NCBI GenBank assembly: GCA_021824145.1
Contig: JAKALM010000003.1
Coordinates: forward strand, 1 to 64,000
Source: Bacteroidota bacterium
GTDB taxonomy: Bacteria; Bacteroidota; Ignavibacteria; Ignavibacteriales; Ignavibacteriaceae
Reading direction: 5' to 3'
DNA: 64,000 bases
Program-made: the position numbers and the translations under genes
The notes under the pieces: model-generated
What the model was told of the DNA's origin: nothing
Databases searched by the model: none
Seen by the model: only the letters and a program-made list of their open reading frames with translations
Part shown: positions 48,287 to 54,902 of the stretch, in pieces
How positions within the stretch are numbered: position 1 is the first letter of the stretch
Layout: each line of letters opens with the position of its first letter

Positions 48287-49978
48287 ATGTCATTTGTAGT
48301 AACGGCGCGTAAATGGCGCCCTCAAAAATTTTCGGATGTTGTTGGACAAGAGCATATAACTGTAACCCTAAAAAATGCTATCAGCAGCAACAGAATTGCT
48401 CATGCTTATATATTTGCCGGGCCGCGCGGCGTTGGTAAAACTACAACTGCCAGAATTCTTGCTAAAGCTCTTAATTGCTTAAATCCGATAGATGCTGAAC
48501 CTTGCAATGAATGTGAAATGTGTAAATCAATTCAAACTTCACAATCTTTAGATATAATTGAAATTGACGGAGCTTCTAACCGCGGTATTGATGAGATTAG
48601 AACTTTGCGAGATTCTGTAAAGTACGCACCAACAAAAGGCAAATATAAAATCTATATCATCGATGAAGTTCACATGCTTACCAAGGAATCTTTCAATGCT
48701 TTCTTAAAAACATTGGAAGAACCTCCAGCACATACCGTTTTTATTTTTGCTACAACCGATATTCACAAGGTTCCATTGACTATCATTTCACGATGTCAAA
48801 GATTCGATTTCAGAAGGATACAATTAGATACAATTAAGTCGTTATTAAGTCAAATTGCTGAAAGTGAAAAAATTTCAATCGACGACAAAACTTTAACCAT
48901 CATTGCTAAAAAAGCTGATGGCGCATTGCGCGATGCGGAAAGTTTCTTCGATCAAATTGTTTCTTTCTGCGGAAACAAAATTGATAATGTTACAGTTTCC
49001 AGTATGCTTAACTTAATTGATGATGAAATTTACTTTATTATTTCAGATGCTGTTTTATCAAAAGATTTCAAATCTGTATTTGAAGTTTCAAAAAAAATCT
49101 ATGATAACGGCTGGGACTTCATTGATTTTATGGACGGTCTGATTGAACACTTTAGAAATATTATGACTGTCGTGTTAAGCAAAAATGTAAACCTTGTTGA
49201 AGCTGCTGATGTATATAAAGCACGTTATTTAGATTATTCTGAAAAATTTTCTGAAAGCGATACTTTGCGATTACTAAATTTCTTAAATAAAACTCAACAG
49301 GAATTAAGATATTCGCAAAATCAAAAGCTTAAAATTGAAATATCGCTCAGCCATTTAATTGGCTTAGAAAAATCTTCAACTATTAGTGAAATTATTTCTG
49401 AATTAAATAATTATAGTAATTCATCTTCTAAATCAGTAAATGAAGAACCTCAATTGAAAATTACATTAACTGGAAATAATGATGTAGAAGGAAAGCATAC
49501 CCATTCTATACTAGAAAAAAAAACACTAGGAGAAAAAATAGTTGATTCTCTTCCCTCTAAAATTCTTGAAACTGCGAACATTGATGATTCAAATTTTGAT
49601 TTTAATACTGTGGTACAGAAGTGGTCTGGTTTTGTCGAATTAGTTTGTCAAGAAAAAGGATTAATCTTTGGACCAGTAATTAAAAATATTAAACTTGTTG
49701 GTTTGGAAGGCAATAAACTTTCAATCTTATGCGAAGATCAGCATAGCAAAGATATTGTGAAAAATAATCAAGAATATATTTCTAAGAAAACATTAGAATA
49801 TTACGGGAAGAAAATGTCTTTTAACTTTTCTGATCATAAATCTCAATATGAGGTTGAAGAAAAAAATTTATCAACTAAAGAATTAAAAAAGCAAAATATA
49901 AAACATAAAAAGGAAGAAGTACAAAATTCTTTTGCCGATGAAATTGTTAAGGAATTAGGCGGAGAAGAAATCGCTTAA
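48287..49978 (+). CDS. dnaX: DNA polymerase III subunits gamma and tau
   Basis: 563 residues. The AAA+ clamp-loader part has GPRGVGKTTTARILAKALNC (45-64), zinc cysteines C64, C73, C76 and C79, the DEVHM Walker B, and the ISRCQRFDF sensor. Domain III follows to about 375. The remaining region, to 563, is the poorly conserved tau-specific part. A run of nine A at 49515-49523 (codons 410-413) lies just beyond domain III and could yield a shorter gamma product. It sits 33 bases after msrC. Confidence 0.95.
   Translation: MSFVVTARKWRPQKFSDVVGQEHITVTLKNAISSNRIAHAYIFAGPRGVGKTTTARILAKALNCLNPIDAEPCNECEMCKSIQTSQSLDIIEIDGASNRGIDEIRTLRDSVKYAPTKGKYKIYIIDEVHMLTKESFNAFLKTLEEPPAHTVFIFATTDIHKVPLTIISRCQRFDFRRIQLDTIKSLLSQIAESEKISIDDKTLTIIAKKADGALRDAESFFDQIVSFCGNKIDNVTVSSMLNLIDDEIYFIISDAVLSKDFKSVFEVSKKIYDNGWDFIDFMDGLIEHFRNIMTVVLSKNVNLVEAADVYKARYLDYSEKFSESDTLRLLNFLNKTQQELRYSQNQKLKIEISLSHLIGLEKSSTISEIISELNNYSNSSSKSVNEEPQLKITLTGNNDVEGKHTHSILEKKTLGEKIVDSLPSKILETANIDDSNFDFNTVVQKWSGFVELVCQEKGLIFGPVIKNIKLVGLEGNKLSILCEDQHSKDIVKNNQEYISKKTLEYYGKKMSFNFSDHKSQYEVEEKNLSTKELKKQNIKHKKEEVQNSFADEIVKELGGEEIA
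49515..49523 (+). promoter_or_regulatory. Nine-A slippery run in dnaX
   Basis: The frame reads GAA-AAA-AAA-ACA. Loss of one A, or a +1 shift, meets TAG at 49527-49529. Gain of one A, or a -1 shift, meets TGA at 49543-49545. Either would give a product of about 413-419 residues, the size expected for a gamma subunit. Confidence 0.55.
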
Positions 49979-54143: not shown

Positions 54144-54164
54144 CGATTAAAATTGCATAAAAAA

Positions 54165-54902
54165 ATGAAAAAAATTCTTATTATTATTTTTGTTTTAACG
54201 ACCTATACTTTTTCGCAAACAAATGTTCATTCCAATTACTTAGCGCTTCAAAATTCAATCAATGAAATAAAAGTTGAAAAAAAAACCCAGCAAAATTTTA
54301 TAACCGAAAACTCTTCTTCTAAAAAAAGTGCAGGACTTGCAATCCTATATTCTATTCTTTTGCCTGGCATGGGTGAACTTTATGCAAATTCATATTCCTC
54401 TGGTAAGTATTTTACAATTGCAGAAGGAGGTTTATGGGGTATTTATTTTGGCATGAATACTTATGGGAATTGGCTGAAAGACAGGTATATTTCTTATGCA
54501 TCATCAACCGGCATGGTTAATACACAAAATAAAAATGGTGATTATTTTGCAACGATTGGTGATTATATGAGCGTTGATGAATATAACAACGCAATGGCAC
54601 TTCAACAAAGTTTTGATAAAATGCTAGATCCTTCTAAATTTTATTGGAATTGGCAAACCACTGCGAACAGAAAAAACTATCGAAATATGTGGGTATCAAG
54701 TGAACAAGAGCATAATGATTTAAGATTTGTTGTTGGAGCATTAATTCTTAATAGAATTGCAAGCGCTATAAATGCTGTAAGATTAGTTTCCGAATATAAT
54801 AAAAGACAATCTGGAGAATTGAGCTGGAACATTTCTGTGGATGCAAATACATCCGCAACTTTACCTTCTACTTTATATTTTAATTTTCAAACCACTTTTT
54901 GA
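54165..54902 (+). CDS. DUF5683-like membrane/envelope protein
   Basis: 245 residues from the ATG MKKILIIIF, which gives a clean signal peptide ending TFSQ. A TTG four codons earlier is the alternative. A hydrophobic glycine-rich segment AILYSILLPGMGELYANSY, followed by a G-rich stretch (EGGLWGIYFGMN), is typical of the DUF5683 family of Bacteroidota envelope proteins. Function unknown. It starts 21 bases after mtaB. Confidence 0.7.
   Translation: MKKILIIIFVLTTYTFSQTNVHSNYLALQNSINEIKVEKKTQQNFITENSSSKKSAGLAILYSILLPGMGELYANSYSSGKYFTIAEGGLWGIYFGMNTYGNWLKDRYISYASSTGMVNTQNKNGDYFATIGDYMSVDEYNNAMALQQSFDKMLDPSKFYWNWQTTANRKNYRNMWVSSEQEHNDLRFVVGALILNRIASAINAVRLVSEYNKRQSGELSWNISVDANTSATLPSTLYFNFQTTF

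Follow-up and report, generated by a model that had tools for sequence, protein, structure and literature searches.

The dnaX gene found in the window, the 64,000-nucleotide stretch of bacterial DNA analysed here, contains an unbroken run of nine A residues (A9) in its sense strand, which raises the question of whether this run allows a single gene to produce both the full-length tau and a shorter gamma protein. In dnaX genes of the Thermus type, the mRNAs contain a variable number of A residues, and gamma and tau are made in a ratio of about 1:1. For the gene of Thermus thermophilus, published accounts describe programmed transcriptional slippage on A9 (PMC1088944, PMC5009743). Reading the sequence of the window gene together with those of its relatives, we propose, with a rough probability of 0.82, that the A9 is a selected programmed transcriptional-slippage site of the T. 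thermophilus type, from which a predicted gamma would be made out of the tau gene through predicted slippage at the RNA level. It is very highly probable that a truncating slip site is under selection in this dnaX and, given such a site, RNA polymerase is very likely the enzyme that slips. The features on which the argument is built are the following.

48287..49978, plus strand: dnaX, tau in one open frame of 563 aa (matches to TIGR02397 and NF004046)
48287..49393, plus strand: clamp-loader core (AAA+, lid and domain III), residues 1-369 (Pfam PF13177, PF22608, PF12169)
49430..49591, plus strand: predicted disordered linker, residues 382-435, containing the A9 run (AlphaFold2 pLDDT <50)
49515..49523, plus strand: predicted A9 slippage run, from codon 410 phase 1 to codon 413 (from the sequence)
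49527..49529, plus strand: TAG, the stop reached when one A is lost (or two are gained), giving 413 (414) aa
49543..49545, plus strand: TGA, stop after gain of one A, product of 419 aa
49601..49828, plus strand: folded C-terminal domain, about residues 439-514, missing from the predicted gamma (pLDDT and conservation)

The identity of the protein is clear from its NCBIfam matches (TIGR02397, E 1.2e-140; NF004046, PRK05563.1, E 5.3e-155). An AlphaFold2 model, built from a 16-row alignment (mean pLDDT 79, pTM 0.58), is confident for the core to about residue 360 and less sure for the helix that extends to residue 379; the solved structures that it resembles most are E. coli clamp-loader chains, with about 350-375 columns aligned, in agreement with the sequence search. 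The C-terminal domain (mean pLDDT 79-89 for residues 441-510) is conserved among dnaX relatives, with W446, G507 and K508 invariant across the 11 rows of alignment A1. A Pfam search of DnaX found no domain in this region, and a profile search of the domain against solved structures returned chance-level matches only (best E 0.35); it is here called the tau domain, a name given by position and conservation only.

The first A of the run is base two of codon 410 (GAA AAA AAA ACA, peptide E-K-K-T). The first-pass annotation had read the nine A residues, their codon and both alternative-frame stops exactly, including the product sizes of about 413-419 residues; its description of the run as lying just past domain III is loose, since domain III ends at residue 369 and the run comes 41 codons later. 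With one A fewer, translation would end in ...E-K-K-H followed by TAG, whose end lies 6 nt from the run, and with one A more in ...E-K-K-N-T-R-R-K-N-S followed by TGA, which ends 22 nt from it. In the mechanism that we propose, RNA polymerase would slip on the 9-10 bp RNA-DNA hybrid at A9 and generate dnaX mRNAs that have gained or lost A residues; those with 9+3n A would encode tau, of 563 aa or one or two residues longer, and the remaining ones gamma. Given the position of the run in the middle of the linker, the predicted gamma of 413-419 aa would be a whole clamp-loader subunit, with the core (residues 1-369) entire, minus its C-terminal domain. The window gene thus has in common with that of T. 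thermophilus an unbroken sense-strand A9 within a single tau frame, close stops in both non-zero frames, a run placed after the clamp-loader core and before the C-terminal tau region (as judged from Pfam and the predicted structure) and the expectation of a shorter gamma. There are also differences: the lineage is unrelated to Thermus, and the run is found at codon 410 of 563 (73%), whereas in Thermus it lies seven-eighths of the way through the gene.

The run in the window dnaX alone is weak evidence, and it is the comparison among relatives that decides. We collected 285 dnaX genes, 284 of them usable (11 from the genus, 27 from the family, 37 from the order, 83 from the class, 46 from the phylum and 80 best hits from named genomes), and defined a linker zone of 100 codons that begins where TIGR02397 ends; this start was fixed when run positions had already been looked at once. 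Genes were chosen by family or genus and by listed coordinates before runs were examined, open-frame lengths being visible beforehand. From a 59-genome set we used the genes whose listed match extends into the zone; G007, G008, G016, G035 (where the listed match stops at residue 203), G039 and G045 had no such match. A 294-genome set provided the 83 class-level genes, besides order-level ones, and the phylum level is represented by 46 of 89 genomes. The 80 named loci, being best hits, are an uneven draw, and the relatives from named genomes share at most 52% identity over the N-terminal part. One gene at a contig end (L046), two fragments (L055, L056) and duplicates (L155-L157, L159, L235 and many of L250-L279) were not counted. 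Two of the genomes lacking a listed match, G039 and G045, are rated 99% complete, and in neither does a dnaX match pass the threshold of TIGR02397 (best E 5.4e-20 and 3.0e-24, respectively), for which assembly gaps are a possible reason.

A run of at least nine A is present in the linker zone of 150 of the 284 genes: 8/11 in the genus, 16/27 in the family, 17/37 in the order, 40/83 in the class, 34/46 in the phylum and 35/80 among the named genomes. With families taken as groups and the genus counted apart, 32 of 51 groups contain at least one. The same search found none in 849 equal-sized zones inside the core, three in the 247 stretches of 100 codons following the linker zone, and four in the remaining open frames of these loci that are 200 codons or longer, which total 305,877 nt. 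Synonymous resampling predicts 60.9 runs and codon permutation 16.6. The excess over both nulls is confined to lengths 9 (67 runs, against 27.5 synonymous and 9.2 permuted) and 10 (76, against 20.8 and 4.0), which make up 143 of the 150 runs. Runs of 8 are fewer than either null predicts (5, against 28.6 and 19.4), length 11 is represented by 7 runs (8.5 and 1.9) and lengths of 12 or more by none (4.0 and 1.5). In this regard, slippage by bacterial RNA polymerase is reported to be efficient in vivo at a run length of 9 (PMC5009743), and many genomes are described as showing selection against runs of 9 (PMC1088944).

Among the 128 single-ORF genes with a run, a stop lies within 30 nt in the -1 frame in 127, in the +1 frame in 112, and in both in 111 (86.7%), compared with 58%, 50% and 31% at random positions of the same zones and 57-63%, 42-47% and 24-29% for control A5-A8 runs of the same genes. 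Averaged over groups, the proportions are 99.9% for -1 and 91.9% for +1 stops, and Fisher tests against other zone runs, in which related genes are treated as independent, give p 4e-22 for -1 and 2e-15 for +1. As a nearby +1 stop is needed for slippage in both directions and not for -1 frameshifting, its enrichment favours slippage. The other 22 run-bearing genes close their zero frame shortly downstream of the run, and 21 of these have a 581-696 nt open frame that continues in -1; these two-ORF genes carry A10 in 17 of 21 cases, and their second frame is presumably tau, judging by its length only. The window dnaX does not belong to this class, its 563-aa ORF being open throughout. Changes between the one-ORF and two-ORF states number at least 10 on the tree.

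The strongest competitor, which we nevertheless regard as improbable, is that the ribosome slips on the run, by a -1 shift on A_AAA_AAA or by sliding on poly(A), and makes gamma from faithfully transcribed mRNA. An in-frame A_AAA_AAA is indeed available in every run (150/150), and the host genome, which is 95% complete, shows tRNA-Lys(UUU) as its only Lys species among 45 tRNA matches, with no CUU. In this it is like E. coli, stated to have only tRNA-Lys(UUU), and differs from Thermus, whose two Lys tRNAs have been suggested to favour transcriptional slippage (both from passages of PMC5009743). Poly(A) sliding, moreover, may run forward and backward, according to passages of a study in which sliding in E. 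coli cell-free translation was robust on A11 and slight on A9 and A10 (PMC4363877). The stimulators of the E. coli dnaX frameshift, which has the same outcome of gamma and tau from one gene, are mostly missing. The window site offers A_AAA_AAA and no in-frame A_AAA_AAG, there is no Shine-Dalgarno core in the 18 nt upstream of the run, and no strong stem-loop follows it, the best 50-nt fold from 3 nt past the run having -4.2 kcal/mol. Across the set, A_AAA_AAG is additionally present in 37 of 150 runs and A_AAA_AAA is the sole option in 78; folding of the 50 nt downstream does not exceed that of other linker windows (p 0.26, n=150). Of the heptamer, the upstream core and the downstream fold, the three signals of the E. 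coli type, only Shine-Dalgarno-like cores rise slightly above control, nominally (7/150, 4.7%, versus 2.0%; binomial p 0.034), and 143 runs have none within 18 nt. Two further observations count against a -1 ribosomal mechanism: it would have no use for the enriched +1 stops, and 7 A in the right phase would suffice for it, whereas the excess begins sharply at 9 in any phase. The concentration of 143 of 150 runs at 9-10, the scarcity of E. coli-type stimulators and the weak sliding at A9 and A10 together favour the polymerase. Of the two precedents named in the first-pass annotation, whose interpretation is supported, the Thermus-type mechanism fits better than E. coli-type frameshifting; run, length and both-frame stops recur far above controls. 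As a side remark, the host carries tRNAs of either anticodon for Gln, Glu, Leu (TTR) and Arg (AGR).

Chance, in the form of a genome rich in A and T, a linker with many lysines and early stops in whichever other frame is entered, is very unlikely as an explanation for the set, although it could account for the window gene taken singly. The probability of at least nine A in the 100-codon linker zone of this gene is 0.048 under codon permutation and 0.58 under synonymous resampling, and 190,638 nt of ORFs from the same genome contain eight A9 (15.6 expected from synonymous resampling), together with no A-run of 10 or more (7.3 expected). In the window, both strands included, there are two A9 against 46 expected from dinucleotide shuffles; the second (54277-54285) lies at codon 42, near the 5' end of an ORF of 249 aa (54153-54902), and also encodes E-K-K-T. 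A9 is therefore avoided in the host genome, yet it is not unique to dnaX and some copies are tolerated, a shortage of long A-runs such as is seen in slippage-prone genomes. For the 284 genes, chance is rejected by the tests of zone, length and GC stratum, besides the both-frame stops, and not from the window gene alone. Runs exceed the expectation of synonymous resampling in every GC class: 36 of 55 genes below 0.35 (19.7 expected), 43 of 75 at 0.35-0.42 (21.5), 39 of 59 at 0.42-0.50 (13.0), 19 of 40 at 0.50-0.55 (4.6) and 13 of 55 at 0.55 or above (1.2, and 0.1 by permutation). As the excess persists in GC-rich genes, AT-richness is not the cause of the runs.

A replication-slippage (phase-variation) site, at which changes in DNA length would turn tau on and off, is hardly credible: A-runs mutate easily and the frame at the run is not the same in one-ORF as in two-ORF dnaX, but in all eight run-bearing genes of the genus the run is exactly A9 and the long frame is uninterrupted, and tau is expected to be essential.

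If transcriptional slippage is what maintains the run, selection would keep an A9-A10 in the linker together with stops in both frames, and not a given position. The distribution of runs is consistent with this. In the genus, family and order they begin 17 to 56 codons downstream of the zone start, and the single-ORF genes are spread over phases 0, 1 and 2 (31, 47 and 50 genes). Within the genus, A9 lies at codon 376 in four genes (L008, L009, L011 and L047, the last a gene fragment placed by alignment) and at codon 410-412, within E-K-K-T, in another four (L001, L002, L004 and L005); at the aligned site of the window run, A9 is found also in L002, L004 and L005. The three genus genes without a run read E-K-P-K (L003, L006) and E-K-R-E-R (L007) at this second site, so that the second lysine is replaced in all of them; both E-K-P-K genes have AAG as the first lysine codon, and a synonymous step may thus have contributed to the loss. 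The first-pass annotation had named synonymous breaks of the run in relatives as evidence against a slip site. In the genus, the four E-K-K-T genes keep an unbroken A9 and four more have it at another codon, whereas the run is missing from three through lysine replacement, with a possible synonymous part in two of these. In the core tree, several forks of which are weak, the losses fall among second-site genes, as does L012, a gene of another genus whose run is again elsewhere, and at least three changes of run state are required within the genus. The run would accordingly have been lost, gained or moved repeatedly, even at this short range. On a tree of 283 rows, at least 47 run-state changes are needed, compared with 79-103 (mean 93) in 100 label shuffles, which indicates that presence of the run is inherited, though often gained or lost.

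No zone run is present in 134 of the 284 genes, among them the three in the genus, and in these gamma by slippage is thus either dispensable or made otherwise. Their zones contain A_AAA_AAG in two cases, a G or C run of at least 7 in three, and T9 or longer in none. Other A_AAA_AA heptamers occur in them at 28 of 13,400 codon steps in the zone versus 36 of 40,200 in the core, about twice as often, and some run-negative genes may therefore use a ribosomal shift. At the level of families, f16 (0/7), f32 (0/4), f6 and f18 (0/3 each) have no run in any sampled gene, and f43 (6/6), f19, f36 and f41 (5/5 each) have one in every sampled gene; the all-negative families are possible natural losses of the slip site.

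The run is very probably a real, selected slip site of the Thermus type, a known kind that here shows an unexpectedly wide occurrence and a shifting position. Antonov et al. 2013 (PMC3711429), in the passages available, list 17 two-ORF dnaX genes with poly-A, nine of them with A10, and shorter runs in Chloroherpeton and Chlorobium. The poly-A of those genes sits at the gamma/tau junction, as it does here, and the two-ORF layout is found in 21 of the 284 genes surveyed; the default product differs, since tau requires a slip in the genes of Antonov et al., whereas in the window dnaX tau is the default and gamma requires the slip. Searched excerpts of the openly licensed literature yielded T. thermophilus as the one-ORF case and these two-ORF genes, and no survey of one-ORF dnaX runs across the phylum. 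Baranov et al. 2005 (PMC1088944) pointed out, in the portion of the article consulted, that for slippage that only truncates, function is hard to infer by comparison, as no coding sequence is gained. Recurrence at shifting positions, the length profile and both-frame stops constitute such a comparative test of truncating slippage, and dnaX passes it. We lean towards a broader view, in which a wandering A9-A10 transcriptional-slippage element would be the main, probably ancestral, route to gamma in the phylum, with outlying cases in Fibrobacter and Omnitrophota records. Its function (length 9-10, linker location and both-frame stops) would be selected, while position, phase and default product (tau or gamma) turn over; gamma would matter to fitness in most lineages and be abandoned or otherwise made in some. 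If the slippage reading is right, slipping by RNA polymerase is a frequent source of gamma throughout a large phylum, instead of one known mainly from Thermus and a set of two-ORF genes, and comparison offers an answer to whether gamma matters, with natural losses available for study.

A few single genes depart from the general picture. The DnaX of L170 (G303) and L171 (G253), from one genus (g50), reaches no more than 447 aa, and its gene lacks an A9 in the zone; this DnaX is possibly constitutively short. Five genes of family f8, in the same class (L241, L243-L246), have DnaX ORFs of 415-493 aa, with A10 in the zone of four; the exception, L244, has an in-frame TGA inside its match. Beyond the 100-codon zone, nearer the C-terminus, L094 (from a Deltaproteobacteria MAG) has an A10 and L013 (G025) an A9, the latter in addition to an A10 in its zone. 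Isolates carrying the run in the named set include Pedobacter, Chitinophaga, Hymenobacter and Aureispira.
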